Positions 38,604 through 52,380 of a DNA stretch of 53,353 bases are shown here, in pieces. Position numbers and translations under genes: made by a program. Each line of letters starts with the position of its first letter. The first letter of the stretch is position 1. The DNA lies in the NCBI GenBank assembly GCA_026129165.1, contig JAHCIP010000005.1, positions 1 to 53,353 of the forward strand, in the 5' to 3' direction. Source of the stretch: Anaerolineae bacterium (GTDB lineage Bacteria > Chloroflexota > Anaerolineae > Epilineales > JAHCIE01). Below the pieces are notes generated by a model, which was not told the origin of the DNA, searched no databases, and saw nothing but the letters and a program-made list of their open reading frames with translations.

Positions 38604-39743
38604 TCAGGTCCGCGACAACTGGTGATAGAGAGCGTGTAAGTTTGCCACACTCTGCTCCAGAGTGTAGGACTTGAGAACTACGTCGCGGGCCGTAGCATGG
38701 AGGTGAGCCAGGCGGGCCGGGTCGGCGAGCGCCCAGCGCAGCGCCGCCGACAAGCCCTCGTCGTCGCCCGGCCGGGCGACACACGGCGCGGGCAGCAGGT
38801 CCGGCAGGAGGCCGACGGCCGTGCCCACCGTAGCGCGGCCACACGCCGCCGCTTCCAGCGTCGCGAACTCCTGGCCCTCATGCCGCGACGCCAGCACGCA
38901 AAGATCGGCGGCGCGGTAGTAGGCGGGCATGGCGGCGTGGGCGATGGAGCCGTGAAAAGTCACATGATTGTGGATCCCCAGGCTCTGAGTCATCGCTTGA
39001 AGCGGGCGGTCCAGTGGCCCTCCACCGAGGAGGTGCAGGTGGAGGGTCGGGAACTCGGGCACGATGCGCGCCACTGCCCGCAGGAGGGTCGTCTGGTCTT
39101 TGACCGGCGTCAGGGACGCGGCATGCAGGAGCGCAGGCGCGCCTCGGAGATGGACAGCCGGTTCGTCCGATCGGGGAGTGGGCCGGAACAAGTCGGTGTT
39201 GACCCCTATCGGTAGACAGATCAGTCGTTCAGAGGGCGTATAGGGCGCGGCCAGGCGGCGCAGATAGGCCGAGCCGACCAGGACACGCGCGGCGCGGCGC
39301 AGCGCCACGCGCACCAGCCCGCGATTCAGAAGGCTCAACTGTCCCCCATAGCCAATGTCAGCCAGGGCGACCAGTTCGCCCCCCAACAGCGAAACCACTG
39401 TCGGAATACCCAGCCACCCCCCAACGAGGGCAGCCACGAAGCCGGGTTCGTCGGCCCACATGGCGTGCAGGACATCGAACGGCCGCCGCCGGTGCTCGCG
39501 CATGACGGCTGCCATCGCTCGTGTCAGCAGCGCCAGCCGGGCGGCGCCCCGCGTTTCGCCGCCGCCCAGCGGGTGCACCGTGATGCGTTCTACCTGGTAC
39601 GGTTGACGGTGATGCGGATAGCGCAGCGGGAACACGTGGACCTCGGCCTCGGCTGACAGCCGCCGCGCCAGGCTCAACTGGGCGGGGATGCACCAATCGT
39701 CGGGGCCGGCGCTAAAGCCGGGGATGAGGATGGCGAGTCGCAT
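38604..39743 (-). CDS. GT4-family glycosyltransferase
   Basis: The 379-residue protein has the GT-B fold: N-domain LAILIPGFSAGPDDWCIPAQL and a C-domain with ASLTPVKDQTTLLRAVA and the EX7E motif in RHEGQEFATLEAAACGRA. Such enzymes transfer a sugar from a nucleotide or lipid donor. It lies at the downstream end of the minus-strand operon of radical SAM proteins and methyltransferases, so the sugar is probably part of the same product. The start at 39743 lacks a good ribosome site. It follows the radical SAM gene by 35 bases. Confidence 0.9.
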   Translation of the reverse strand: MRLAILIPGFSAGPDDWCIPAQLSLARRLSAEAEVHVFPLRYPHHRQPYQVERITVHPLGGGETRGAARLALLTRAMAAVMREHRRRPFDVLHAMWADEPGFVAALVGGWLGIPTVVSLLGGELVALADIGYGGQLSLLNRGLVRVALRRAARVLVGSAYLRRLAAPYTPSERLICLPIGVNTDLFRPTPRSDEPAVHLRGAPALLHAASLTPVKDQTTLLRAVARIVPEFPTLHLHLLGGGPLDRPLQAMTQSLGIHNHVTFHGSIAHAAMPAYYRAADLCVLASRHEGQEFATLEAAACGRATVGTAVGLLPDLLPAPCVARPGDDEGLSAALRWALADPARLAHLHATARDVVLKSYTLEQSVANLHALYHQLSRT

Positions 39744-39778
39744 AAGCGTTTATGGAGAGGGCGGAGAGGTTGGACGCC

Positions 39779-41257
39779 TCAGAAGCCGGTCGTCTCAGGA
39801 CGCTGGTAGGCAATGAGCTTGTGGAGCGCGCGCAGTTCGAGCGGATGACGGTAGACGCGCAGGTGGTAGCGCCAGGCGCTGGCCGCCCGCAGCGCGAGAC
39901 GCCAGGCCCGCGTCAGCTTGGGGTCGGTGGCCGTCGGATAGTAGGCGTTCAGGACGCGCTCGAAGTCGTGGGTCAGGTCGCGCAGATTGGCGCCCAGCCA
40001 GGGGACGGTCGTGCTGCGGCGGAGCGAGAAGGTGTTCCACTCCGGGCTGACCCACTCTTCCAGGGTCGCCGGGAAGCGGAAGCCCTCGGCCTTGGCCGTC
40101 TCGTACAACTCGCCCGCCAGCGGGACGGGGGTGTACATGTACATGATAATCTCGGTTGCCGGATGAATCTGCTTCACCCGCCGAATGAACTCGATGGTGT
40201 GGCGGATGTCCGCTTCGGGGTCGGGCGGGTTGCCCATGACAAAAGAAAGCTCCGGGATCATGCCGTAGCCACGCATGAGACGCACAATTTCAAGCGTCTT
40301 CTCCGCGCTGGCCGTCCCGCCCTTGTTCATGCGCTTGAGCGTCTCATCTGAGCCGGACTCCGCGCCCAGGAAGACCATCTTCAAGCCGCTGGCGGCCATC
40401 AACTGCCAGGTGCGCTGGCTCATCTTGAGCAGTGTATCGATGCGCGCCTCACCCCACCAGCCTAGCCCCAGGTCCATAATGCGCTCGGCAAACTCGGCGG
40501 TACGCGCCTCGCTGACAAAGAAGTTGTTGTCGAAAAACTCAATGGCGTCCGCGCCATAGCGGTCGTGGAGCAGGCGCACGGTGTTGGCCGTGCGTTCGGC
40601 GCTCTGGGCCAGCCAGCGGCCATTGACCATGTTGACCACCGCGCAGAAGTTGCAGAAGAACGGGCAGCCGTAGGATGAATGGTGGGGCAGGGTGCGCTGG
40701 CCCAGGTAGCAGGCGCGGGCGTACTGGTCCATAGGGACACGGTGGTAGGGGAAGTCGGGCAGGCTGTCAGGGTGGGGGACGGAGGCCAGGGGGTTGGAGC
40801 ACGGCTCGCCCTGGGCGACATAGGCCAGGCCGCGCACATCGGCCAGCGCGCTGCCCTGGTCGAGGCGGTCGAGTAGTTGGAGGAAGACATGCTCCCCGTG
40901 ACCGCGCACGACATAGTCTACATAATCTGCCCGTAGGCAGGTGTCCCAGTGCTGGGTCGGGAAGTAGCCGCCCCAGACGATGATCAGCCCTGGATGGCGG
41001 CGCTTGAGTTCGCGGCACAGCGGCACGGCCTGGGCCAACTGCGGCCCCGGCATCACCGTCACGCCCAGCACCCGCGCCCCGGCCTGCGCCAGGTGATCCA
41101 GCCGGGTTAGCGGGTCGGTCTCGATGTTGCCGTCTACAATGATGTAGTCGCGCCGGCCTTCGAGCAGGCCGCCGAGGGCCAGCAGGGACATGGGCAGGAT
41201 GCGCTTGCCGGAGCCGTTGCTGCGCGGGTTATAGAGAACAATCATCGTTGCGCTCAT
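39779..41257 (-). CDS. B12-binding-type radical SAM protein (3)
   Basis: The 492-residue protein has an N-terminal Rossmann-like domain of the B12-binding type and a radical SAM domain with CPFFCNFC, giving Cys198, Cys202 and Cys205 for the 4Fe-4S cluster. A GAESGSDETLKRMNKG stretch is typical of this subgroup. No DXHXXG cobalamin motif is visible in the first domain, so cobalamin binding is unproven. Members of this group include methylases and other enzymes acting on unreactive carbon or phosphorus. The gene overlaps the methyltransferase gene by 29 bases and is part of a seven-gene operon. Confidence 0.87.
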   Translation of the reverse strand: MSATMIVLYNPRSNGSGKRILPMSLLALGGLLEGRRDYIIVDGNIETDPLTRLDHLAQAGARVLGVTVMPGPQLAQAVPLCRELKRRHPGLIIVWGGYFPTQHWDTCLRADYVDYVVRGHGEHVFLQLLDRLDQGSALADVRGLAYVAQGEPCSNPLASVPHPDSLPDFPYHRVPMDQYARACYLGQRTLPHHSSYGCPFFCNFCAVVNMVNGRWLAQSAERTANTVRLLHDRYGADAIEFFDNNFFVSEARTAEFAERIMDLGLGWWGEARIDTLLKMSQRTWQLMAASGLKMVFLGAESGSDETLKRMNKGGTASAEKTLEIVRLMRGYGMIPELSFVMGNPPDPEADIRHTIEFIRRVKQIHPATEIIMYMYTPVPLAGELYETAKAEGFRFPATLEEWVSPEWNTFSLRRSTTVPWLGANLRDLTHDFERVLNAYYPTATDPKLTRAWRLALRAASAWRYHLRVYRHPLELRALHKLIAYQRPETTGF

Positions 41258-42038
41258 GGGTCAGGCGGTAGATGGTGACGATCTCGTAGATCAGGTCGCG
41301 GCGCAGGACGATTTCGCACCGCAGATGGTGGGTCTGGGCGTCGGCCAGGAAGCCAGCCTCGTCGGCATCGCTGGATAGGATTACCAGGGCCGCCCCGCCA
41401 GCGCGCAGGTGGTGCGGCAAGGCGGCCAGGAAACGCGGCACGACATCCAGGGACCGCCAGGCGTGGTCGTACAGGTCGGCGGGCGGGCCGACATAATAAG
41501 GTGGGTTGAAGAGGACGAGGTCGAACTGTTCGCCATCCACCGCCGTAAACAGGTCGCCCTGGTAGGCCTGGACGCGGTCCTCGACCCCCTGCGCCAGGGC
41601 ATTGAGGCGCACGCAGCGCACCGCCGCTGGATTGATGTCCACGGCCACGACCCGTCTGGCCCAGCGGGCGGCGAACACCGCGCCCACGCCCGACCCCGTC
41701 CCCATGTCCAGCACATCGCCATGGGGGACAGTCGCCGCGTTCAGAACCCCGGCCAGCATCTCGCCCGTCAGAAAGAGCTTGGGGTTGAAGACGTCGGGCA
41801 AGACGATGAGGGGGGCGCCGAGCACCGTCTCGATGACGAGCCGGCGATGCCGATGCAGCAGGAACGGCCGCCGCACTGCCTGGAGACGCCGCCAGACGCG
41901 CCGCACCAGGCGCGGCCACGGGCGAACCCCTCCCCCAACCCCTCCCCTGGCAAGGGGGGGGGGATTGTTCCGCTCTGGCTCCCCCTTCCCTCCCAGGGAA
42001 GGGGGCTGGGGGGTTAGGTAAACGCCCGAAGCTATCAT
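41229..42038 (-). CDS. Class I SAM-dependent methyltransferase with NPPY motif
   Basis: The protein resembles HemK/PrmC-type N-methyltransferases: motif I VLDMGTGSGVGAVFAARW, motif for substrate LVLFNPPYYVGPP. The NPPY element usually marks methylation of amide, amino or guanidino nitrogen, so the target may be protein or small molecule. ATG 42038 is in an ATGA overlap with the preceding gene and is preceded by GAGGTGAGGG. Residues about 8-35 (PQPPSLGGKGEPERNNPPPLARGG) come from a GC-rich palindromic repeat; a downstream GTG at about residue 44 would avoid it. It overlaps the radical SAM gene 3' by 29 bases. Confidence 0.82.
   Translation of the reverse strand: MIASGVYLTPQPPSLGGKGEPERNNPPPLARGGVGGGVRPWPRLVRRVWRRLQAVRRPFLLHRHRRLVIETVLGAPLIVLPDVFNPKLFLTGEMLAGVLNAATVPHGDVLDMGTGSGVGAVFAARWARRVVAVDINPAAVRCVRLNALAQGVEDRVQAYQGDLFTAVDGEQFDLVLFNPPYYVGPPADLYDHAWRSLDVVPRFLAALPHHLRAGGAALVILSSDADEAGFLADAQTHHLRCEIVLRRDLIYEIVTIYRLTHERNDDCSL
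41930..42018. repeat. GC-rich palindromic repeat encoding the N-terminus of the methyltransferase
   Basis: On the minus strand it starts CCTAACCCCCCAGCCCCCTT and contains a CCCTTCCC/GGGAAGGG stem; a related copy is at 52304-52353 in a true intergenic gap. Here it is translated directly after the start codon. Confidence 0.8.
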
Positions 42039-42895
42039 ACCCTCACCTCGGTTCTCACCAGTTCAAGCAAGTAGTGGTCATTCAGGCTAGTTGCGGGCCA
42101 CTGGCGGCTGACGCGAGCTTCGAGGCGGGCGAGTCGCTCGAACGCGGTGGGCCAGCGGTCTACCAGATGGCTCAGGTAAGAGGGCGGTAGGAAGACGCCG
42201 ATGCCCTGGTGGTCCGTGACCTGGAACCAGGGCGCCAGCGCGTGACCGAGGTGGCTTGGGGACGGGTAGAAGACGCGCACGGGCTGTCCGCCAATGTCGG
42301 CCAGGACGCCGCCACGCCGCCAGCGCCGCGCGGTCGCGCCAAGCTGACCATGCGCCGCGTACCAGGCGACCTCCCACGGACACCACGGCCCCATGACGAC
42401 GAGGGCGAGGCGTCCTCCAGGGCGCACCAGCCGGGCCAGCGCCCCGCCCACCCCGCGCAGGTCCGCCACGCAGTTGAGGGCGCCAAAGTTCGAGAACGCG
42501 CCGTCAAAGAACTTCCCTGCCCCTGACTTCCCCGCTCCTTCCCACTCCTCCCACTCTTCCCATCCTTCCCACGCCTCCATCTCTTCCATCCGCAAGACCT
42601 GCGTCTCAACCCGGTCGGCCAATCCCGCCGCCCGCGCCTTGGCCTGCGTTAGCTTGACCATGCGCGGCGACGCATCGGTCGCCAGGACATGCGCGCCCCG
42701 CCGCGCCATCCACACCGCATCCTCCCCTGTCCCGCAGCCTAGCTCCAGCACGTGGCTGCCGGCTGGAAACAGCGCGGCCAGGCGGGCCTGCACCGAGGCG
42801 CGCAGCCAGCGGCCCAGCCGCGTCACGGTGAAGGCGTCATCGTAGCCGTCGGCCACGCTATCAAAGGCGGCCGCGTCGTGGGCCAGGGCGCTCAT
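42035..42895 (-). CDS. Class I SAM-dependent methyltransferase
   Basis: The 286-residue protein has the Rossmann motif I HVLELGCGTGEDAVWMARRG and motif II-type ATDASPRMVKLTQAKA. It is most like UbiE/Methyltransf_11-type enzymes. Residues about 103-128 (MEEMEAWEGWEEWEEWEG) interrupt the normal region between motif III strands and are low complexity; they look like an inserted simple repeat. The gene is bracketed by ATGA overlaps with the radical SAM gene (2) and the NPPY methyltransferase, hence one transcript. The methylated compound is not identifiable. Confidence 0.87.
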   Translation of the reverse strand: MSALAHDAAAFDSVADGYDDAFTVTRLGRWLRASVQARLAALFPAGSHVLELGCGTGEDAVWMARRGAHVLATDASPRMVKLTQAKARAAGLADRVETQVLRMEEMEAWEGWEEWEEWEGAGKSGAGKFFDGAFSNFGALNCVADLRGVGGALARLVRPGGRLALVVMGPWCPWEVAWYAAHGQLGATARRWRRGGVLADIGGQPVRVFYPSPSHLGHALAPWFQVTDHQGIGVFLPPSYLSHLVDRWPTAFERLARLEARVSRQWPATSLNDHYLLELVRTEVRV

Positions 42896-44298
42896 CCTTG
42901 GCCGCCTGTCTCGGTCTCGCCCGCCGTTAGCGCCATACCCACCCTGCCTAGCTTTGAATTGACATAGGTCTTGGCGAGACGCAAGGGTTGCTTATCGGAG
43001 CTATGCCAGAGCTTGTGGAAGGCGACCTCGTTGACCATCCAGCGCGTGGCGAATGAGTAGAATCGCCGGGAGTGGCGGCCCGCCACCGTCAGGTCGCGAT
43101 CGGTACGGTCGTCCCACGGCTTGTCGCTTAGCACGCGGCTCTCGACCTCCGTATAGTACGGCGTTCCCTTGATGGGGTAGGCCACCGTGGTCAGGAACAG
43201 GTCGGGGTCGGCCTTCTTCAGGTGCTCCACCGTCTCCTCAAGCTGGGGCGTGTCCTCGCCCTCGTAGCCGAGCATGATAAACATGCCGGTCTGGATGCCG
43301 CGCCGCTTGAGGAGGTGGGTCATAGCCTGCACCTCCTCGACTTTCGTTCGCCGCGACATGGCATCCAGCACCGCCTGCGACCCGCTCTCCGACCCGATCC
43401 ACAGCCGGTAGCAGCCCATCTCGGCCAGCGTGTCCACCAGACGCTCGTTGAGCCGGTCGGCGCGGGAGATGCACTCGAAAGGCAGGCGCAGCCCGCGCGC
43501 CTTGAGCAGGGCGGCGTAGGCGAAAAACCAGCGCGGGTGGATGGTCAATACGTCGTCGGCGTACCAGAGCCGGTCGGGGCGATACGCCTCCACCAGCGCC
43601 TCGACCTCCTGGACCACGTTGGCGGGCGAGCGGCGGCGGTGGGTGTGACCGAAGACGGTGTGGCTGCACCACTTGCAGGTGTAGGGGCAGCCGCGCGCCG
43701 TGATGAGCGACGCCGAACTGTGGCCGTGATGGACCTGCCAGGTGTCCAGGTACTGCTGGAACGGGATGGCCGCGCGGTCGGGGAAGGGCAGGTCGTCCAG
43801 GCGCTGGATGTAGGGGCGCGGCGGGGTGCGGACAATCGCCCCGTCCCCGTCCCGGAAAATGATGCCCTGGATCTCGCGCAGACCGTTCAGGCCGTGACGG
43901 GCCAGGTGGGGCAGCAGCGCCTCCAGCGTCAGTTCGCCCTCGCCTACGACCACGACATCGGTCCCCCGCGCCAGGTAGTCCTCGGCATAGTGGGGCGGCT
44001 CCGGCCCGCCCAGGACCACCGTCGCGCCAGCGGCTTTCGCCGCCTGGATCATGGGCAGAATCCAGCGTTTGGTCATCAGGTTGCAGTAGAGGCCGACGAC
44101 GGCAGGCCGGTCGCGCTCCAGCCGCGCCGCGAAGTCGGCGGGCTGGCTGAAGGTGGCGTCAAAGAAGCCGACGCTAAACCCGCGCGATTTGAGATAGGAC
44201 GAGAGATACAGCAGCCCTAACGTCGGGTAGGGCTTCATCACCTTGAGTTCGTGCGGGTCTTCGTAGAGATAATAACCGTGGGCTAGCAGAATATCCAT
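42892..44298 (-). CDS. B12-binding-type radical SAM protein (2)
   Basis: The 468-residue protein has the same two-domain arrangement as the neighbour: N-terminal B12-binding-like domain with YPTLGLLYLSSYLKSRGF and VVLGGPEPPHYAEDYL, then a radical SAM domain with CPYTCKWC (Cys204, Cys208, Cys211). It also has the GSESGSQAVLDAMSRR segment. No DXHXXG motif was found. Its family includes proteins for methylation or rearrangement reactions in natural product and lipid pathways. It overlaps the methyltransferase gene downstream by ATGA and starts 7 bases after the radical SAM gene (1). Confidence 0.87.
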   Translation of the reverse strand: MDILLAHGYYLYEDPHELKVMKPYPTLGLLYLSSYLKSRGFSVGFFDATFSQPADFAARLERDRPAVVGLYCNLMTKRWILPMIQAAKAAGATVVLGGPEPPHYAEDYLARGTDVVVVGEGELTLEALLPHLARHGLNGLREIQGIIFRDGDGAIVRTPPRPYIQRLDDLPFPDRAAIPFQQYLDTWQVHHGHSSASLITARGCPYTCKWCSHTVFGHTHRRRSPANVVQEVEALVEAYRPDRLWYADDVLTIHPRWFFAYAALLKARGLRLPFECISRADRLNERLVDTLAEMGCYRLWIGSESGSQAVLDAMSRRTKVEEVQAMTHLLKRRGIQTGMFIMLGYEGEDTPQLEETVEHLKKADPDLFLTTVAYPIKGTPYYTEVESRVLSDKPWDDRTDRDLTVAGRHSRRFYSFATRWMVNEVAFHKLWHSSDKQPLRLAKTYVNSKLGRVGMALTAGETETGGQG

Positions 44299-44305
44299 GC
44301 GCGTC

Positions 44306-45874
44306 TCACTCGGGTTGGGCCGACGGGGTAGCCGCCGCGTCGGGCGTCAGCAGGGCCGGCAGCGGCGCGGACGAGCCGTCCGACTGACGCTCCAGCCGGG
44401 CCAACTTGACCCGCGCCCAGGGCAGCGTGGCGACGTGGTAGGCGACGGTGGCGGCCTGGCGCACTAAACCAGGCTGCGGACGGCGCGCCCCCCAGCTTTC
44501 CCCTTGCCCATCCTTCCTCTGTCTTCCTCGTCCGGTGAGTTCACGCCAGGCCCGGCGGGCGCGAAACTCCTTGTGCAGGACGGTGTGAAGCTGGCGGTAG
44601 AACGCGGTTGAGTACGGTCCGCGATAGAGCATGGCGAGATCGGCGCTATCCTGCCAGTTCTGCTTGCCCCCCAGTTGGAGGCGGACATGGTCATAAAACT
44701 TGGTGCCGGGCAGTGGGTAGGACACTGACATGCCAATGTCGTCGGGCTGGCAGTCGCGCACCATGCGTAGGGTCGCCTCGATGTCCGCGCGGTCCTCACC
44801 TGGATAGCCAAACTGGAGAAAAAAGCCGACTTCGATACCTGCCCCATGGAGTTTGGCGGCGGCTTCGTAAATCTGTTCCACGGTCGTGCCTTTGTCCATG
44901 GCGTCGAGAATCTTCTGCGAGCCTGACTCAGCGCCCACCCACACGGTCTGACAGCCCGCCTGGCGCAGGCCCGCGACGACGCTGTCCTTGACCAGGTCCA
45001 CGCGCAGCAGGCACTTAAACGGGATGGCGGCGTCGGCGGCCTGGACGGCCTGGCCGAACTGCTCAATCCAGCCCGGCTTGAGGCCGAAGATGTCATCCAC
45101 GAACCAGATATGGTCGGGGGCGAAGGCCGTCTTGAGCCACTTCATCTCGGCGGCGACGTTCTGCGGGCTGCGCACGGTGTAACGTTGGCCCCAGATGGGC
45201 TTGGCGCACCAGTTACAGTGGTAGGGGCAGCCGCGCGTTGTCGCCATGTTCATGGAGAAGTAGCCGTGGCGGGCCTGCCACACCTGCCGATAGCGGGGCA
45301 GGTCCACCAGGCCCCAGGCGGGGAAGGGCAGCGCGTCAAGGGCGCGCAGGAGGGGGCGAGGGCCGTTCCGGACGGTCTGGCCCGCTACGTCTCGCCAGGC
45401 CAACCCCGCAATCTCTCTCAACTCGCGGGGCTGGCGGCCCGTGAGGGCGTGGAGGAGTTCCACCAGCGTCCCCTCGCCTTCGCCCAGCAGCGCGAAGTCG
45501 GCGCCGTGCGCGAGATAGAGGTCGTAATGGTCGGTGGCATCCGCGCCGGCGACGATGACGGTACAGCCGCGCGCCTTCGCCATGCCCATCATGCGCAGGG
45601 TGGCCTGGCGCATCCGCAGCAGGCACATCTTGCTGAGATAGTTGAAGTTGTCCTCGAACAGCACGGCGAAGCGGGGCTGATGCTGGTCTAGGGCGGCCTC
45701 CCACTCGGCCTCGGACTCGGCCAGCATGGCGTCGAACAGGGCGACCGTATAGCCCTCCTGGCGCAGGAGGCTCGCGGCGTAGAGGGCGCCGAGCGGTGGG
45801 TAAGGCTGCATCGCCTCCCACAACTTCGGGTCGAAGCGCAAGTAGTAGCTCTGGCCGAGCAAAACATTGGTCAT
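44306..45874 (-). CDS. B12-binding-type radical SAM protein (1)
   Basis: The 522-residue protein has the N-terminal YPPLGALYAASLLRQEGYTV, GADATDHYDLYLAHGADFALLGEGEG and radical SAM segment CPYHCNWC (Cys216, Cys220, Cys223), then GAESGSQKILDAMDKG. It is a distant paralogue of (2). A low-complexity patch near the C-terminus (GRGRQRKDGQGESWGARRPQ) looks like translated simple-repeat DNA. It overlaps the fused nucleotidyltransferase-GT gene by ATGA. Three such proteins in one operon suggest three successive radical steps or parallel substrates. Confidence 0.87.
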   Translation of the reverse strand: MTNVLLGQSYYLRFDPKLWEAMQPYPPLGALYAASLLRQEGYTVALFDAMLAESEAEWEAALDQHQPRFAVLFEDNFNYLSKMCLLRMRQATLRMMGMAKARGCTVIVAGADATDHYDLYLAHGADFALLGEGEGTLVELLHALTGRQPRELREIAGLAWRDVAGQTVRNGPRPLLRALDALPFPAWGLVDLPRYRQVWQARHGYFSMNMATTRGCPYHCNWCAKPIWGQRYTVRSPQNVAAEMKWLKTAFAPDHIWFVDDIFGLKPGWIEQFGQAVQAADAAIPFKCLLRVDLVKDSVVAGLRQAGCQTVWVGAESGSQKILDAMDKGTTVEQIYEAAAKLHGAGIEVGFFLQFGYPGEDRADIEATLRMVRDCQPDDIGMSVSYPLPGTKFYDHVRLQLGGKQNWQDSADLAMLYRGPYSTAFYRQLHTVLHKEFRARRAWRELTGRGRQRKDGQGESWGARRPQPGLVRQAATVAYHVATLPWARVKLARLERQSDGSSAPLPALLTPDAAATPSAQPE

Positions 45875-48123
45875 GACGCTACCCCAAGTGGCTCGTGGCT
45901 CCCGTTCGCGACGGGCGAATCTATCACCTGCCGATAGACGGCCAGTGTCTGCTGCGCTGTCGCCTGCCAGGAGAAGGCCCTGGCGCGGGCGAGACCGCGC
46001 TGGCGCAGGCGGGCGTTGAGGGCTGGCTCACTCACGCCAGCGGCCAGAGCGTCCGCTAGTTCTGAGACCGAGAGGGGGTCAACGGTCAGCGCCGCATCGC
46101 CCGCAATCTCAGCCAGGGAACTGGCGTCTGTCGTGACGACTGGCGTGCCGCAGGCCATCGCCTCGATGACGGGCAGGCCAAAGCCTTCATAGAGCGAGGG
46201 GAACGCGAAGACCTCGGCCAGGTTGTAGAGCGCGGGCAGGTCTCCGGAGGGCACATAGCCCAGGTAGCGCACCGCGCCGCCGAGGCTGAGTTGCTCCAGC
46301 CGTTGGAAGATCGGCTTATAGTCCCAGCCCAACTGTCCGACCAGGACCAGTTGATGCGGCAGCCCGGCGGCGCGCAAGCCGCCGAAGGCTTCAATCAGGC
46401 GCACCAGGTTCTTGCGCGGCTCAATGGTCCCGACATAGAGGATGACGCGCGGGGCGAGGCCGTACTTGTCTCGAACCGCCGTGGCCACGTCGGCGGGCAG
46501 GGGGCGGAAACAGGGCGATGCCGCCTCATAAATGACGTGAACTTTGGCGGCTGGCACGTGGAGCAGACGCACAATGTCGGCCTTGGCGCTGTGGGACACG
46601 GTGATGATGGCGGCCGCCTGCCGCGCGACGAGGGGAATGAAGGGGCGCGCCACCAGGTGCTTGCGGAGTGGGTGCAAGCGGGGGAAGAGCGATAGGGTCA
46701 TGTCGTGGATAGTGACGACAAAGGGCGTCGCCGTGGGCAGGGGCGCGACGGAATTGGTGAAGTGGCACAGCGCCGGCTGCTCGACGCGCAGGGCCAGGGG
46801 GAGAACGGTGTGCATCCAGAGGGTGCGGTTGGGCCACTGATACCGCGCCGCCAGAGGATAGCCGCCTGTGACCCCCTCGATAGGGCGGTTCGAGAGAAGT
46901 AGATAGTCGTGTTCCTCGTCTTCCTGCAGCAGATGGGTGAGCAGGTGGCTGGTATAGTACCCGACGCCCGACTTGGCCCCGCGCAGCGTGGTGGCGTCGA
47001 AGCCGATGGTGGGGCGGTGGTCGTTGCCATGGGGCGAGGCCGCCCTGGCCCTGCCCGCTCCCCTGTTGAGAGAGTCTCCATGCGGAGGGTAGGCGGCAGG
47101 AGCGGCGGAGGGTAGAGGCCGCGCAAGCGACCCCGGACCCTCCCCCTGGCCCTCTCTCAGGGGGAGAGGGAATAGACCGGTAACGCCGCTCTCTGTCTGT
47201 GGCTGAACGGCCTCGTCGAGGTGGTAGGTTGCCAGGCGTTCGGCATATAGGCCCAGGATATGTTGCCCGTGGGCGTCGAAGTGTCCCTTGCAGCAGTCGG
47301 GCGAAAAAACGACACTGTCGGCGTGGGGCGGTGTTGCGGCCGTCAGTTGCGCAATTTTGCGCCGCTGTATCCACCCTTCCAGCCGACGACCTGGCTCCCC
47401 GCCCAGCCAGCGCTCCACCGCTCTTTTCACCCGGCCACCGAGTGGCTGAAGATCATCCGATAGCCTACTCTGGTGGACCTGCCAGGCGTGGGGGAGGTAG
47501 TCCACCGCCCAGGCATTGGCCGCCTGCCAGCGGCGATAAACGTCGCTCCCGTACAGGGGGACGGTCTGGGCCAACTCGCGCGCCGTGAAGACGTTGTGTT
47601 CGTCGAGGTGGAGGGCCGTCTCGGCTAGGAGGTAGTTGGGGCACAGCCGCTGGCCGACGAGGGCCGCCAGGCGGACGACGGTGGTGCACAGGGCGCGGGC
47701 CAGCCACAGCCGGCCGGGCTGGGTCACAATAAGGTAGTCAATGTCATCATCCGGCGGGGCGTTGCCAGCGGCCAGCGCCCCCGTTACCATGACGCCGCGC
47801 ACAAAGGGCAGATGCGCCAGCACGCGGCCCCAGTGGTGCGCGGCGTGCCAGGTTGCCTCGGCCGATGTGTTGCGGGCAAGACGGCGGGCGACTGTGGCTT
47901 CGCGCCCGCGCAGGCAGTAGAAGCCGTCCAGGCGCGTGATGTGTTCGGTCAGGGCGGGGTCAGTCGCCAACGCGGCCTGGACTGCAGCCGGATCGGCCTG
48001 GTCCCCGATGAGGTAATGGACGAGTTCGTCGCGCGTCAGGGGGAACTCGAAAATGTCGGCGTAGAGCAGTGTTTTCAGCAGCGCGATCCGAAGCTGCGCG
48101 GAGCCAGCAGATGCCGTTGTCAT
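45871..48123 (-). CDS. Fused nucleotidyltransferase-like and GT4 glycosyltransferase
   Basis: The 750-residue protein has two parts. Residues 1-310 resemble a nucleotidyltransferase-fold protein: helical start, then GALAAGNAPPDDDIDYLIVT with Asp125, Asp127 and Asp129 candidates. The usual Gly-Ser of the NT fold is Gly-Ala here, so activity is uncertain. Residues about 365-750 are a GT4 enzyme (IGFDATTLRGAKSGVGYYTSHL, VILYVGTIEPRKNLVRLIEAFG, EX7E in SLYEGFGLPVIEAMACGTPVV). The linker, about residues 316-361, is encoded by a GC-rich palindromic repeat (47040-47176). The repeat may have fused two separate genes. It is the first gene of the operon. Confidence 0.83.
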   Translation of the reverse strand: MTTASAGSAQLRIALLKTLLYADIFEFPLTRDELVHYLIGDQADPAAVQAALATDPALTEHITRLDGFYCLRGREATVARRLARNTSAEATWHAAHHWGRVLAHLPFVRGVMVTGALAAGNAPPDDDIDYLIVTQPGRLWLARALCTTVVRLAALVGQRLCPNYLLAETALHLDEHNVFTARELAQTVPLYGSDVYRRWQAANAWAVDYLPHAWQVHQSRLSDDLQPLGGRVKRAVERWLGGEPGRRLEGWIQRRKIAQLTAATPPHADSVVFSPDCCKGHFDAHGQHILGLYAERLATYHLDEAVQPQTESGVTGLFPLPLREGQGEGPGSLARPLPSAAPAAYPPHGDSLNRGAGRARAASPHGNDHRPTIGFDATTLRGAKSGVGYYTSHLLTHLLQEDEEHDYLLLSNRPIEGVTGGYPLAARYQWPNRTLWMHTVLPLALRVEQPALCHFTNSVAPLPTATPFVVTIHDMTLSLFPRLHPLRKHLVARPFIPLVARQAAAIITVSHSAKADIVRLLHVPAAKVHVIYEAASPCFRPLPADVATAVRDKYGLAPRVILYVGTIEPRKNLVRLIEAFGGLRAAGLPHQLVLVGQLGWDYKPIFQRLEQLSLGGAVRYLGYVPSGDLPALYNLAEVFAFPSLYEGFGLPVIEAMACGTPVVTTDASSLAEIAGDAALTVDPLSVSELADALAAGVSEPALNARLRQRGLARARAFSWQATAQQTLAVYRQVIDSPVANGSHEPLGVAS
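47040..47176. repeat. GC-rich palindromic repeat translated as the linker of the fused protein
   Basis: The segment includes the hairpin CCCTCTC-TCAGGGG-GAGAGGG (about 47150-47170). The translated product is LFPLPLREGQGEGPG and RPLPSAAPAAYPPHGDS. Such words are typical of intergenic repeats rather than of protein families. Confidence 0.65.
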
Positions 48124-48215: not shown

Positions 48216-49124
48216 CTACGCCTCGCGGACCACGCGGGTCTCCATGACCAGGTTCAGAATCTTGTAGACGAGCTTGGCGACAATGAAGTCTGCACTGTGG
48301 GACGTTGGGTTGGGGGCCAGTTCCACTACGTCGAAGCCGATCACGCGGCCGTGCTGTGTCACGGTGCGGATGATGTCCAGGGTCTGCCGCCAGGTGAGGC
48401 CGTCGGGTTCGGGCGTGCCGGTCGCCGGGATAAGTGAGGGGTCGAGGCCGTCCACGTCGACAGTGAGATAGACGTTTTTGCCCGCCACGGCTTCCGCCAG
48501 CGCCTGGAGGTGCGCGCCGCCGCCCGTGTGAACCTCATCGGCGAAGAAGACAGTGACGCGGTCCGGGTGGGCGGCGATAAAGTCGGCCTCTTCCTGGCTG
48601 ATGGATCGGATGCCGAACTGGATGATAGGGGCGATGTCCACCAACCGGCGGGCGATGCAGGCGTGGGAGTAGGGCGTGCCCTCGTAGTCGGCGCGGAGGT
48701 CGGCGTGGGCGTCAATCTGGACGATGACGAACTCGCCCAGGGCGCGATGCAGCCCGCGCCCGAAGCCCACCGACACCGTATGCTCGCCCCCCAGCCCGAC
48801 GACAAGTTTGCCCATCGCGGCGTACTCGGCCACGGCGGCCTCGATGGTATTGACCGTCGCTTCGGGGCCGCTGAGGTCGGGGGCCAGCGCGGGCAGGGTA
48901 TGGACGCCATAGTCGAAGACCGGCTCGCGGCCAAACTCGCGGTCGTAAAGTTCAATTTGGGCCGAGGCGCGCAGGATGGCGTCGGGGCCGTGGGCCGTGC
49001 CGTGGCCGTAGCTGACCGTGCCTTCGTAGGGCAGGGGCAGAATCACCGCCTGGCAGTCTTCAAAGCCGGTGTCTTCGGGCGGCAGGCCGAGGAAATTGGC
49101 CGGGGGGCGGAAGGCGTAGGGCAT
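48216..49124 (-). CDS. speB: Agmatinase (agmatine ureohydrolase)
   Basis: The 302-residue protein belongs to the ureohydrolase family, with dinuclear Mn ligands visible as GGEHTVSVG (His115), DAHADLRADY (Asp138, His140, Asp142) and the late DVDGLDPS segment. It hydrolyses agmatine to putrescine and urea. Its gene starts 2 bases after the DHS-like gene, and a pyruvoyl-type arginine decarboxylase gene lies beyond the IS element. Together these give arginine to agmatine to putrescine, then further amine modification. It ends about 90 bases before the radical SAM operon, with no strong terminator visible. Confidence 0.94.
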   Translation of the reverse strand: MPYAFRPPANFLGLPPEDTGFEDCQAVILPLPYEGTVSYGHGTAHGPDAILRASAQIELYDREFGREPVFDYGVHTLPALAPDLSGPEATVNTIEAAVAEYAAMGKLVVGLGGEHTVSVGFGRGLHRALGEFVIVQIDAHADLRADYEGTPYSHACIARRLVDIAPIIQFGIRSISQEEADFIAAHPDRVTVFFADEVHTGGGAHLQALAEAVAGKNVYLTVDVDGLDPSLIPATGTPEPDGLTWRQTLDIIRTVTQHGRVIGFDVVELAPNPTSHSADFIVAKLVYKILNLVMETRVVREA

Positions 49125-49126
49125 GG

Positions 49127-50302
49127 CTAGTCCTGAGCCTCGCTCGCCTCGACATCCAGCGACGAGCGGCCAATGGCCTGGCCGCCGCCCTGCTCGCGGG
49201 CCTCGTCAGGAATGTCAGCCGCGTCGTCGGGTCGGTACTGGTCATAGGCGTGCTGGAGCGCAGCCAGCATCTCCACGCGGCGGTCGTAGAGCCGTTTGAG
49301 TGGACGCGGCCCGCGCTTTGCCAGAGCATAGGCGGTCAGGATGGGGAAGGCGATGGTCGAGTCGACATAACAGACGACGGAGTCGGGCAGTTGCTCCGGG
49401 TCCACCTTGCCCCAGGTCATGGCCTCGCTGGGCGTCGCGCCGGACAGGCCGCCGGTGTCGGGGCGAGCGTCGGTGAACTGGAGGAAGTAGTCGTGGCCCT
49501 TCTCCGGGATGCCCATGATCTCCTGGATCTGCGGCTCGGTCTGGAGGATGAAGTTCTTGGGGCTGCCGCCGCCCAGGATGATGACCGCGCTCTTGCCGCC
49601 CCGGTGTTTGGCGTCGTAGACAATGCTCGTCGTCTCATTGACGTCGCCCTCGACGTCGAAGCGCAGCTTGTTGCCGGCCATCGCCAGCGCCGCGACGTTC
49701 ATGCCAATGGTCGAGTCGCCGGGGCTGGAGGTATAGAGCGGCACGCCCGCCTCATAGGCGGCGGTCAGGATGGACGTGTAGGGCGTCGCCAGCGCGTGCT
49801 CGCGCTCGCGGGTGTACTTGCCCAGGTGGTAGTGCAACTCGGCGGTGGTCATTTGACGCTGGAACTCCGGGCCTTCGAGGCAGCGGCGCAGGAAGGCGTC
49901 CGACTTGAGCAGCACGTCCTGGTCGAAGACAATGTCGTAGATGCGGATGATGTGCTCTTCGCGCAGGCGGTAGTCGTCCACGTAGGGCGAGGTCTGGAAC
50001 AACTCGAAGCCCAGGCTGCGGTGCATGTCGTGGTACAGGTTGGCGCCGGTGGACACGATCCAGTCCACGAAGCCGGCGCGGATGAGGGGGACGAGGGCGG
50101 CTGTCCCTAGACCCGTCGGCGTGATGGCGCCCGTGAGCGTCAGGCCCACCGTCACGTCCGGTTCGAGGATTTTTTCGACCAAGATTTGCGCGGCCTCCCG
50201 CAGGCGGGCGGCATTGTAGGCGTAGAAGTAGTGGTCCACCAGGTCTACGACGGTGGTCATGGCGCCGATGGGGCGCGGGTCGAGTTTGCGTCCGAGGGAC
50301 AT
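49127..50302 (-). CDS. Deoxyhypusine-synthase-like protein
   Basis: The 391-residue protein is a bacterial member of the deoxyhypusine synthase family, which in eukaryotes transfers aminobutyl from spermidine to a lysine of eIF5A. Bacterial members often act on free amines (homospermidine or related). The segment [15 protein letters not shown] places Lys249 where the eukaryotic catalytic lysine (GGGVVKHH) is. NAD-binding glycine-rich parts such as STGANLYHD and [11 protein letters not shown] are visible. Between arginine decarboxylase and agmatinase, it should act on agmatine- or putrescine-derived intermediates. The start ATG 50302 lies at the edge of a heptad repeat. Confidence 0.88.
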
Positions 50303-50315
50303 AAGCCTCCTTGGG

Positions 50316-50455
50316 GAGTGCTGAGTACTGAGTGCTGAGTGCTGAGTCGAACGTATGAATACCGAGTACTGAGGGTTGAGTGCTGAGTATCACTCACCAA
50401 GTCATCCTTCGGTATTCAGTACTGAGTACTGAGTACTCAGACTTTCGACTCAGCA
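50316..50455. repeat. Heptad-phased repeat, left of the IS element
   Basis: From 50316 the words GAGTGCT, GAGTACT, GAGTGCT, GAGTGCT, GAGTCGA and later CTGAGTA copies follow in 7-base steps, with a few slips. It fills the gap between the DHS-like gene start and the IS element. The same kind of words resume on the right at 51523. Confidence 0.85.
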
Positions 50456-51522
50456 ACCGATTATGCGAAAAGCTCCTTGATGGCCAGGAGGCGGCGAGCG
50501 AGCAAGGCATTGAGATAGATGCCGAGCGTATAGGCAGTGACAATGCCAACGAGGCGTTTGGCTAGACCGATGTCGGTCTTAGCGCCCGGCTGCTCGATGT
50601 GCATGTGACCCGCTAACTGGGAGAAGACCGTCTCGATCAAGGGACGAAACGTCTTCAACGCCCAGGCTTCGAGCGGGGTGTTCTGCACATGCTGGTTGGA
50701 GCGACGGTAGGTCAACAGCCAGACGTGCTGGTTCTCGGCCAAGGCAGCACGTTTGGGGTCAGAGACGAAGCCTTTATCGCCTAAGGCCAGGATGTCGTGG
50801 CTCTCGTCGAGTAGGTCCATGAGGGTGTGGACATCATGGGGCCGCGCCGAGAACAGCTCATAGACATCCGGGATGCCTTGCGGGGTGATGAGCATGCCCA
50901 GCTTGAAGCCATAATACTTCAGCTGCTTGCTGGCACAGTAGCCGCCATCGGCCCGCTGGAAGCCGTTACCGCGCCCCGCTCGAGCGTGACGGTCAGCCAC
51001 CGGGATGGGCAGCGTGTCGAGGATGCGGATGTCCTCATAGTCGACCCCCAAGCTCGCCCGCAGGTGACGCCGAAAGCGTTCGATGAGCGGCAGGGCCGTG
51101 CGGATGCGATGCCACAGCCGACTTTGGTCGGGCAGCTTGTCAAAGTAGGCGCGGTAGTGACGCTGGACTTCCCGCAGGATTTCAGTCTCGCCGCGCTTGC
51201 CCGTCAGATGCATGAGCATGTCGAGTTTCAAGATCGTGCTATCGGAATACGTCTTGGGCCGTCCTGGCCCCGACCGGGCGGCCAGATGAGTACAGAACTG
51301 GTCAATGACGGCGAACAGGAGGTGACACAGCCGCTCCTGCGTCAGCCCCTCGCTCTGGATTGTCGCTACGAGTGAGTCGATGTATGCTTGGCTTGGTAGT
51401 GGGGTCTCCATCGCGGAGGTCTCCTTGGTTGGGTGTGGTAACCCTAAGGGTACTCGCGTTGATACCCCACTGCCAACTCTACCGCTTATCCTCTGTCTGC
51501 CCTTCTATTTCGCATAATCGGT
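50456..51522 (-). mobile_element. IS982-type insertion sequence, complete
   Basis: 15-bp perfect terminal inverted repeats (ACCGATTATGCGAAA at 50456-50470 and its complement at 51508-51522) flank a single intact transposase gene. The element is 1067 bp. TCAGCA occurs directly on both sides (50450-50455 and 51523-51528), compatible with a 6-bp target duplication, although the flanking DNA is itself repetitive. It sits inside a heptad repeat and separates the DHS-like gene from the arginine decarboxylase gene. Confidence 0.9.
50461..51411 (-). CDS. IS982-family transposase
   Basis: The 316-residue protein shows DDE features: ILDTLPIPVADRH with the first Asp, LALGDKGFVSDPK with the second, and RPLIETVFSQLAGH with the Glu. 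The YCASKQLKYYGFKLGMLIT segment is typical of IS982. Its stop codon TAA lies within the left terminal repeat. The gene is intact, so the element may still be active. Confidence 0.93.
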   Translation of the reverse strand: METPLPSQAYIDSLVATIQSEGLTQERLCHLLFAVIDQFCTHLAARSGPGRPKTYSDSTILKLDMLMHLTGKRGETEILREVQRHYRAYFDKLPDQSRLWHRIRTALPLIERFRRHLRASLGVDYEDIRILDTLPIPVADRHARAGRGNGFQRADGGYCASKQLKYYGFKLGMLITPQGIPDVYELFSARPHDVHTLMDLLDESHDILALGDKGFVSDPKRAALAENQHVWLLTYRRSNQHVQNTPLEAWALKTFRPLIETVFSQLAGHMHIEQPGAKTDIGLAKRLVGIVTAYTLGIYLNALLARRLLAIKELFA

Positions 51523-51550
51523 TCAGCACTCAGCACTCAGCACTCAGCAC
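51523..51550. repeat. Four exact tandem heptads TCAGCAC
   Basis: TCAGCAC is repeated four times without error, ending one base before the stop codon of the arginine decarboxylase gene. It continues the repeat interrupted by the IS element. Confidence 0.9.
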
Positions 51551-52096
51551 TTAGAGAAGAACCGCGGCGGTAATCACGGTGGTCCAGCGGCCCTGCTCGT
51601 CGCCGACGGCGGAAATGGCAATGGACGTGGTATCGACGATGTGGCCGCCGACGCGGTACTGTTCGCGGCGTTCCAGGTAGTCGCGGTCCAGGTCAAAGGG
51701 GACGCCCAGGACGGTCGCCAACATGCCGGCGGCCAGGTCCTCGGCGTAGTCGCCCGCTTCCTGCTCGGTCTGGCCGAAGGAGTGATGCTCAGACAGATAG
51801 CCGTACATATTCGGGTCGGCGGGCAGGGAGACGCCGATGGAGGCGGTGACGACGCGGCGCGGTTCATTGCTCGCCTGCTCCGACAGCACCACGAATACAA
51901 CCTCGCCCGGCTCGACGGCCATCAGCCCTTGCTCGCGGGGAATGATGCGGCAGCCAGGAGGAAAGATTGAGGAGACGCGCACCAGGTTCAAATGGGCGAT
52001 ACCTGCGTCTCGCAACGCCATCTCGAAACTCGTGAGCTTCTCACGGTGGACACCGACGCCCCGAGTCAGGAACAGCTTGCGGGGGACAAATCGCAT
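51551..52096 (-). CDS. Pyruvoyl-dependent arginine decarboxylase
   Basis: The 181-residue proenzyme contains RVSSIFPPGCRIIP, where the Ser-Ser junction is the self-cleavage site that forms the pyruvoyl group. Later segments ASIGVSLPADPNMYGYLSEHH and DTTSIAISAV also match. It converts arginine to agmatine. ATG 52096 follows AAGGAG; an in-frame GTG at 52123 sits before it and is disfavoured. It was probably the first gene of an operon with the DHS-like protein and agmatinase, now interrupted by an IS element. A structured leader (52140-52252) lies upstream. Confidence 0.93.
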   Translation of the reverse strand: MRFVPRKLFLTRGVGVHREKLTSFEMALRDAGIAHLNLVRVSSIFPPGCRIIPREQGLMAVEPGEVVFVVLSEQASNEPRRVVTASIGVSLPADPNMYGYLSEHHSFGQTEQEAGDYAEDLAAGMLATVLGVPFDLDRDYLERREQYRVGGHIVDTTSIAISAVGDEQGRWTTVITAAVLL

Positions 52097-52303: not shown

Positions 52304-52380
52304 CTCGCGCCCGACCTAACCCCCCTGCCCCCCTTCCCTACGAAGGAAGGGGGCGTCGGACGGGCGAGGCAACCTCGCCC
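52304..52380. repeat. GC-rich intergenic palindromes
   Basis: ACCTAACCCCCCTGCCCCCC (52301-52330 region) starts a copy of the repeat also seen at 41930-42018. CCCCCTTCC (52329-52337) pairs with GGAAGGGGG (52345-52353), and GGGCGAGG (52362-52369) pairs with CCTCGCCC (52373-52380). Together they fill the gap before the stop of the next gene. Confidence 0.75.

Follow-up and report, generated by a model that had tools for sequence, protein, structure and literature searches.

A conserved operon of radical SAM, methyltransferase and glycosyltransferase genes with an unnamed nucleotidyltransferase-like family, likely directed at a surface glycan

Seven near-contiguous open reading frames (ORFs) occupy positions 38604-48123 on the minus strand of the window, i.e. 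the whole stretch of 53,353 nucleotides that was analyzed and to which all positions refer (Table 1). The ORF list places each of them where an original prediction, made from the sequence, had put a seven-gene operon. In transcript order the genes, here named A to G, are joined by junctions of -4 (A/B), +7 (B/C), -4 (C/D), -4 (D/E), -29 (E/F) and +35 (F/G) bases, and these coordinates return the same values as the prediction, according to which five of the six junctions were overlaps or gaps of 7 bases or less; its count of ATGA overlaps was one too many, as there are three in total with the fused gene included. A scan for promoters and terminators added nothing to the operon argument. The absence of a standard scaffold enzyme, also part of the prediction, is borne out by searches of Pfam and NCBIfam, in which none was recognized in the operon.

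Table 1. Genes of the operon and features within them, with positions in the 53,353-nt window
Feature	Position	Strand	Length	Description	Pfam match
Gene A	45871-48123	-	750 aa	Orphan N-domain fused to GT4	
A, N-terminal domain (~residues 1-310)	47194-48123	-		Predicted winged helix, then pol-beta-type nucleotidyltransferase-like domain (TGALA...DDIDYLIV)	
A, C-terminal GT4 domain	45871-47034	-		GT4	PF00534, 119.6 bits; PF13439, 49 bits
Gene B	44306-45874	-	522 aa	B12-binding-type radical SAM; core marker of the module	
Gene C	42892-44298	-	468 aa	B12-binding-type radical SAM; accessory, subfamily closest to B	
Gene D	42035-42895	-	286 aa	Class I SAM-dependent methyltransferase; core	PF13649/PF08241
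Gene E	41229-42038	-	269 aa	MTS-domain (HemK2-like, NPPY) methyltransferase	PF05175, 58.7 bits
Dispersed palindrome CCCCCTTCCCTNNNAGGGAAGGGGG	41981-42005	.		Inside the annotated start of E (codons ~1-40)	
Gene F	39779-41257	-	492 aa	B12-binding-type radical SAM; accessory, separate subfamily	
Gene G	38604-39743	-	379 aa	GT4 glycosyltransferase	PF13692, 87.5 bits

Pfam assigns D and E to the class I methyltransferases, in agreement with the predicted pair of a UbiE-like and an NPPY methyltransferase set among the radical SAM genes. The palindrome CCCCCTTCCCTNNNAGGGAAGGGGG is found at 35 sites of the genome with one mismatch or fewer, as against 0 for the reversed control pattern. Because this repeat lies in the start of E, and because alignment with an E orthologue begins only at about residue 43, the true start of E is uncertain and the D/E overlap is doubtful support for an operon. 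E reaches about 565 aa in several relatives, with an extra upstream methyltransferase that has a zinc-ribbon-like start; the E of the window corresponds to the second half only of these long orthologues, and no close homologue of its missing half was found elsewhere in the 91%-complete assembly. Alignments of F with its orthologues begin at about residue 3-6, and F may start some codons further downstream, in which case its 29-bp overlap with E would be smaller. Strong homologues of G are present in several related loci (L054 and L182 among them).

Of the two glycosyltransferase activities that had been predicted, both stand, as the GT4 enzymes of G and of the C-terminal half of A, but the N-terminal ~300 aa of A had been missed, and these are the most distinctive part of the operon and a near-obligate partner of B. 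The gene A fusion is one open frame, in which a low-complexity linker (~residues 311-365) joins the nucleotidyltransferase (NTase)-like domain to GT4. A reading of A as two genes, the second with an internal GT4 start, was rejected since the linker has no in-frame ATG. Across all collected loci, window A was the one case of both domains in a single ORF. Pfam gave no convincing family for the A domain in any of the nine members examined, profile searches with it against PHROGs and solved structures returned nothing significant, and a viral structure library searched with A gave no match; judged by its sequence, the domain represents a conserved family that is unnamed in the databases searched here.

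The AlphaFold model of the A N-domain (pLDDT 88.5, pTM 0.86) starts with a part taken for a winged helix, made up of helices with a short beta pair, and continues into a nucleotidyltransferase-like core. Its top solved matches in Foldseek were MNT antitoxins, HalB and AadA/ANT, with a best E value of 1.9e-3 and none below 0.001. Residues G115, D127 and D129 are invariant in the A-family alignment (A1), and the strict G...DxD pattern is present in 77 of 91 A homologues, with 12 of the other 14 having DxD after a similar G-containing stretch. Besides this DxD, no third NTase carboxylate was recognized in the N-domain of A. Since the Foldseek E values stay above 0.001, the nucleotidyltransferase assignment is a good lead and falls short of proof. 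The predicted fold core and the G...DxD signature are similar to those of MNT and aminoglycoside nucleotidyltransferases (AadA, ANT4), from which A differs in matching no sequence family, in its flanking parts, with a winged helix before the core and a conserved C-terminal region after it, and in being tied to radical SAM genes, with no HEPN partner recognized in the operon. A HEPN/MNT toxin-antitoxin system was rejected, as no HEPN gene was recognized beside A, which is flanked in the window by an agmatinase-like gene on one side and radical SAM B on the other.

All three radical SAM proteins of the window score above the curated Pfam cut-offs for the B12-binding (PF02310) and Radical_SAM (PF04055) domains and carry CX3CX2C, so that Pfam and motif agree with the clusters and B12-binding-like N-domains first proposed for them. 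The motif is kept in 110 of 110 B orthologues, always in the form RGCPxxCxWC, and in 37 of 38 C orthologues. The label "B12-type" for B, C and F refers to the domain, and their use of cobalamin is putative; to our knowledge AprD4, which has the same fold, does not use cobalamin. No curated NCBIfam family takes B, C or F, the best scores reaching about a quarter of the cut-offs. Against HpnJ (TIGR03471, cut-off 577.6) the three proteins scored 128, 108 and 98 bits respectively, against BchE (TIGR02026, cut-off 481.35) 127, 140 and 122 bits, and against AprD4 (NF033070, cut-off 500) 78, 52 and 41 bits. A bacteriochlorophyll-type reading of the BchE and BchM matches was rejected, because every score was a fraction of its cut-off. 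B scored 86 bits against TIGR04295 (B12_rSAM_oligo, cut-off 400), a B12-binding radical SAM family whose name presumably hints at oligosaccharide gene clusters and of which B is not a member. A plasmid search with B gave no match at E 1e-60.

The model of B (pLDDT 81) matches the solved structures of MgmA, AprD4, TsrM and OxsB at 17-20% identity. The best match is MgmA (PDB 9ccb), an enzyme that C-methylates a glutamine of methyl-coenzyme M reductase; its substrate, however, is a protein, its identity to B is 20%, and B reaches 94 bits with the corresponding family, TIGR04014, where the cut-off is 360. AprD4 (PDB 6fd2), the aminosugar-acting radical SAM diol dehydratase of the apramycin pathway, shares with B the fold with a B12-binding-like N-domain (E 2e-21, TMt 0.70), but is only ~20% identical to B, which has a C-terminal extension. 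Together the four enzymes cover carbon methylation, aminosugar dehydration and sugar-ring contraction, and since the nearest folds perform such varied reactions the chemistry of B is not readable from its fold.

A tree was built from 105 radical SAM proteins of the collected loci. In it, F forms one supported clade (98% SH-aLRT), Bacteroidota included, while typical B proteins form one clade and typical C proteins another. Some loci hold a fourth type, distantly F-like, and a small number of divergent sequences from Chloroflexota are placed between B and C. Because the B, C and F clades each span several phyla, the three proteins of the window represent old, separate subfamilies that moved together. 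They had been described as paralogues, which holds in the sense of superfamily relatives and fails in the sense of local duplicates; recent duplication as their origin was rejected by the tree.

When 40 relatives were searched with B, orthologues were found in 13, at 42-68% identity. Around these orthologues the genes repeatedly follow the order A-B-(C)-D-(E)-(F), which was also obtained independently by starting from A, and one relative (locus L159) has an intact A-B-C-D-E-F operon that stands by itself. Conserved gene order, the check suggested along with the original prediction, is found for A to F. A B-profile search of genome contigs extended the set to 80 loci from Chloroflexota, Bacteroidota, Acidobacteriota, Ignavibacteriota and Myxococcota, with single records labeled Thermomicrobiota and Actinomycetota (the latter label is doubtful), and across the five main phyla B loci usually have A and/or D within 10 kb. 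Neighbors were counted in 75 B loci, made up of the window and 74 loci of 14 kb or more: D is no more than 10 kb from B in 69 of them, on the same strand in 67, and A in 61. Among 33 loci from Bacteroidota, D is this close in 32, A in 26 and F in 21. The module is also present in the isolates Niastella yeongjuensis DSM 17621, Mucilaginibacter pedocola, Dyadobacter frigoris, Longitalea arenae and Aureispira sp. CCB-QB1.

Across 400 genomes of the phylum, a strong A was detected in 27, each of which also has a strong B, and B was detected in 28 in all, without A only in G004 (Fisher p about 4e-41). A usually adjoins B where contigs allow; in a few genomes (e.g. G025, G350, G074) the two are on different contigs, and A-B adjacency is usual, not absolute. 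Each of the three distant A homologues that were examined (L183-L185) has a C-like radical SAM at a distance of ~3.5-4.5 kb. The co-occurrence of A and B, the recurrent order and the nearness of D and A to B bring us close to having shown that the operon is one functional unit. The predicted operon thereby gains support as one functional unit from conservation across phyla, where the core stays together; the test for homologues scattered in unrelated contexts, which would have spoken against it, did not refute it.

Recurrent neighbors, identified by clustering and Pfam/NCBIfam, include GT2 and GT4 glycosyltransferases, a PF02397 initiating sugar transferase, an O-antigen ligase/polymerase and a flippase, and further a SPASM radical SAM, additional methyltransferases, a phosphorylase closest to 5'-methylthioadenosine phosphorylase, and an amidohydrolase with only weak matches, to purine and related deaminases. 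GT4 is found within 10 kb of B at 46 of the 75 loci, a Wzy-like protein at 32, GT2 at 24, a flippase at 21 and PF02397 at 14. When six glycan classes are counted together, 58 of the 75 B loci have a gene from any of them within this distance vs 1 of 20 control stretches (p 3e-9), a comparison biased in favor of the B loci, from which the seeds for the glycan scan were taken, and in which the controls (arbitrarily placed 19.5-kb stretches of related genomes) are all from the phylum of the window, whereas many B loci are not. The other 17 loci have none of the six classes; beside the window operon no flippase, ligase or initiating transferase was found, only GT4, and the A-F operon of L159 is without glycan-assembly genes in the stretch read. 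Polysaccharide loci attract laterally moved genes, and for this reason the neighborhood alone does not fix the substrate.

On balance, we lean towards a conserved, probably laterally spread module that makes an unusual surface-glycan residue, be it part of a polysaccharide or a glycolipid head group. The A-type NTase-like protein, radical SAM B and methyltransferase D form its core, to which C, F, E and the GT4 enzymes are variable additions, and its chemistry would combine radical remodeling with methylation. Going by its fold and conserved DxD, A would use a nucleotidyl group from an NTP to activate or cap a saccharide intermediate, on which B, C and F, by analogy with their family, would carry out radical C-methylation, deoxygenation or a change of ring or carbon skeleton, with D and E adding methyl groups; the GT4 domain of A and G would then attach the modified residue to the growing chain. 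In relatives, the adjoining flippases, O-antigen ligase/polymerase and initiating sugar transferases would assemble and export this chain, and the neighboring phosphorylase and amidohydrolase of some relatives could plausibly clear 5'-deoxyadenosine and S-adenosylhomocysteine. A bolder version, which we put forward tentatively and would not expect to hold in full, is that A founds a new NTase family, an obligate partner of B and D, and that together they install a previously unseen carbon-level change (of the skeleton, or by radical C-methylation) on a surface-glycan sugar that is nucleotide-activated or capped by a nucleotidyl group, in Chloroflexota, Bacteroidota and several other phyla. The module is apparently undescribed. 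It draws on enzyme superfamilies that are known, and the family at its core that has no name is the A domain. No published pathway with this exact gene set, the other finding that would have counted against the prediction, turned up in the open-access literature, subscription papers and preprints having been largely outside the search.

HpnI, HpnK and HpnJ act on hopanoid cyclitol ethers, and HpnR is responsible for C-methylation. By analogy, the scheme of HpnI (glycosyltransferase), HpnK and HpnJ (radical SAM) is the nearest described logic to that of the module, as there, too, a glycosyltransferase and a radical SAM act on a carrier-attached sugar, and HpnJ is the best or near-best NCBIfam match for B, as it is for one F protein from Bacteroidota; but the window proteins score far under the HpnJ cut-off, no hopanoid gene was recognized in the operon, and the scheme has no nucleotidyltransferase or methyltransferase step (PMC12583986). 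This likeness bears on an unlikely, if serious, alternative, namely that the module remodels a membrane lipid or lipid-linked head group and that glycosylation of this lipid explains the nearby glycan genes. B does score best with HpnJ (128 bits), BchE and a ladderane-type lipid radical SAM family, and the HpnI/HpnK/HpnJ route pairs a glycosyltransferase with a radical SAM on a lipid-borne sugar (PMC12583986); against this, the scores are far under the curated cut-offs (128 vs 577.6 for HpnJ), the neighbor families examined contain no recognized lipid-scaffold gene, and the recurrent neighbors are polymer-assembly genes. It is because of these neighbors that a surface glycan (or glycolipid), likely the target, is preferred to both a lipid and a soluble natural product; the envelope glycan or lipid originally proposed as the simplest product is thereby refined to a likely glycan or glycolipid, with assembly genes near 58 of the 75 B loci but only GT4 beside the operon of the window.

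We consider it improbable that the product is a small, secreted compound similar to a nucleoside or an aminoglycoside, with radical SAM and methyltransferase steps and an NTase-like protein for self-protection or activation. The solved structures closest to B include AprD4 and OxsB, both from antibiotic biosynthesis, the fold of A resembles aminoglycoside nucleotidyltransferases, and the phosphorylase and amidohydrolase neighbors are similar to nucleoside/purine enzymes, but a core that is steady over several phyla and near polymer-assembly genes, in an operon without a recognized scaffold enzyme, fits such a product poorly. Some of the radical SAM models matched (ApyD, rSAM_ocin_1) come from RiPP pathways, in which the radical SAMs would methylate or cross-link a ribosomal peptide; a RiPP cluster is nevertheless very unlikely and was rejected, since the operon leaves no space for a short precursor ORF (the largest internal gap is the 35 bp of F/G, and 92 bp lie upstream of A), and no peptidase or leader-recognition family was reported in the seven proteins. 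Finally, the radical SAM, methyltransferase and GT4 families are each abundant and could be neighbors by chance, with no shared pathway, yet the probability of this is negligible: A and B are together in 27 of 28 genomes, the order recurs in several phyla, neither A nor B was found above thresholds in any of the 20 control stretches, and the co-occurrence counts refute it.

Radical SAM and B12-type enzymes are best known in antibiotics, cofactors and lipids. If the module is tied to glycans, as we favor, the wide spread of a set with two to four of them would be a sign that a class of sugar chemistry has stayed hidden. The unnamed A-domain family gains its first context from the module, and the presence of the module in named isolates opens its role to direct experiment.

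Directly upstream of the operon, beyond a gap of 92 bp, lie agmatinase-like and deoxyhypusine-synthase-like genes, and none of the relatives inspected carried such genes next to gene A (winged-helix and nucleotidyltransferase-like "A domain", fused in the window to a GT4 glycosyltransferase). The inverted repeats around the transposase-like ORF are 91% identical over 34 nt, with a GAGTGCT/GAGTACT-type unit as their building block. The palindromic repeat CCCCCTTCCCTNNNAGGGAAGGGGG is dispersed, with about 33 genome sites in addition to its two copies in the window. In gene D, a class I methyltransferase, 9-bp tandem repeats encode a Glu/Trp-rich segment, EEMEAWEGWEEWEEWEG, apparently an insertion when compared with the orthologues.

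Features in and around the operon (window positions)
Feature	Position	Remark
9-bp short tandem repeats	42536-42587	within gene D
Palindrome, copy	41981-42005	in reading frame at gene E start
Palindrome, copy	52329-52353	
Agmatinase-like (SpeB) and deoxyhypusine-synthase-like genes	48216-50302	same strand as operon; named by eye
Transposase-like ORF	50461-51411	
Imperfect inverted repeats	50317-50350 and 51518-51551	either side of transposase-like ORF

Orthologues of the methyltransferase E at loci L159, L034 and L054 are tandem double methyltransferases, with a zinc-ribbon-like start followed by two class I domains, and in Bacteroidota loci a separate gene encodes a protein resembling the first half of this double form. 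Two loci, L083 and L071, appear foreign to the titles of their public MAG records (Bifidobacterium breve and Bacteroidetes); the C radical SAM protein of L071 clusters with Chloroflexota, and both records are probably mislabelled or contaminated bins.

Distant A-domain homologues at L183-L185 (genomes G248, G392 and G117) have a divergent C-like radical SAM gene approximately 3.5-4.5 kb away, which suggests that A-domain/radical SAM pairs form a wider superfamily.
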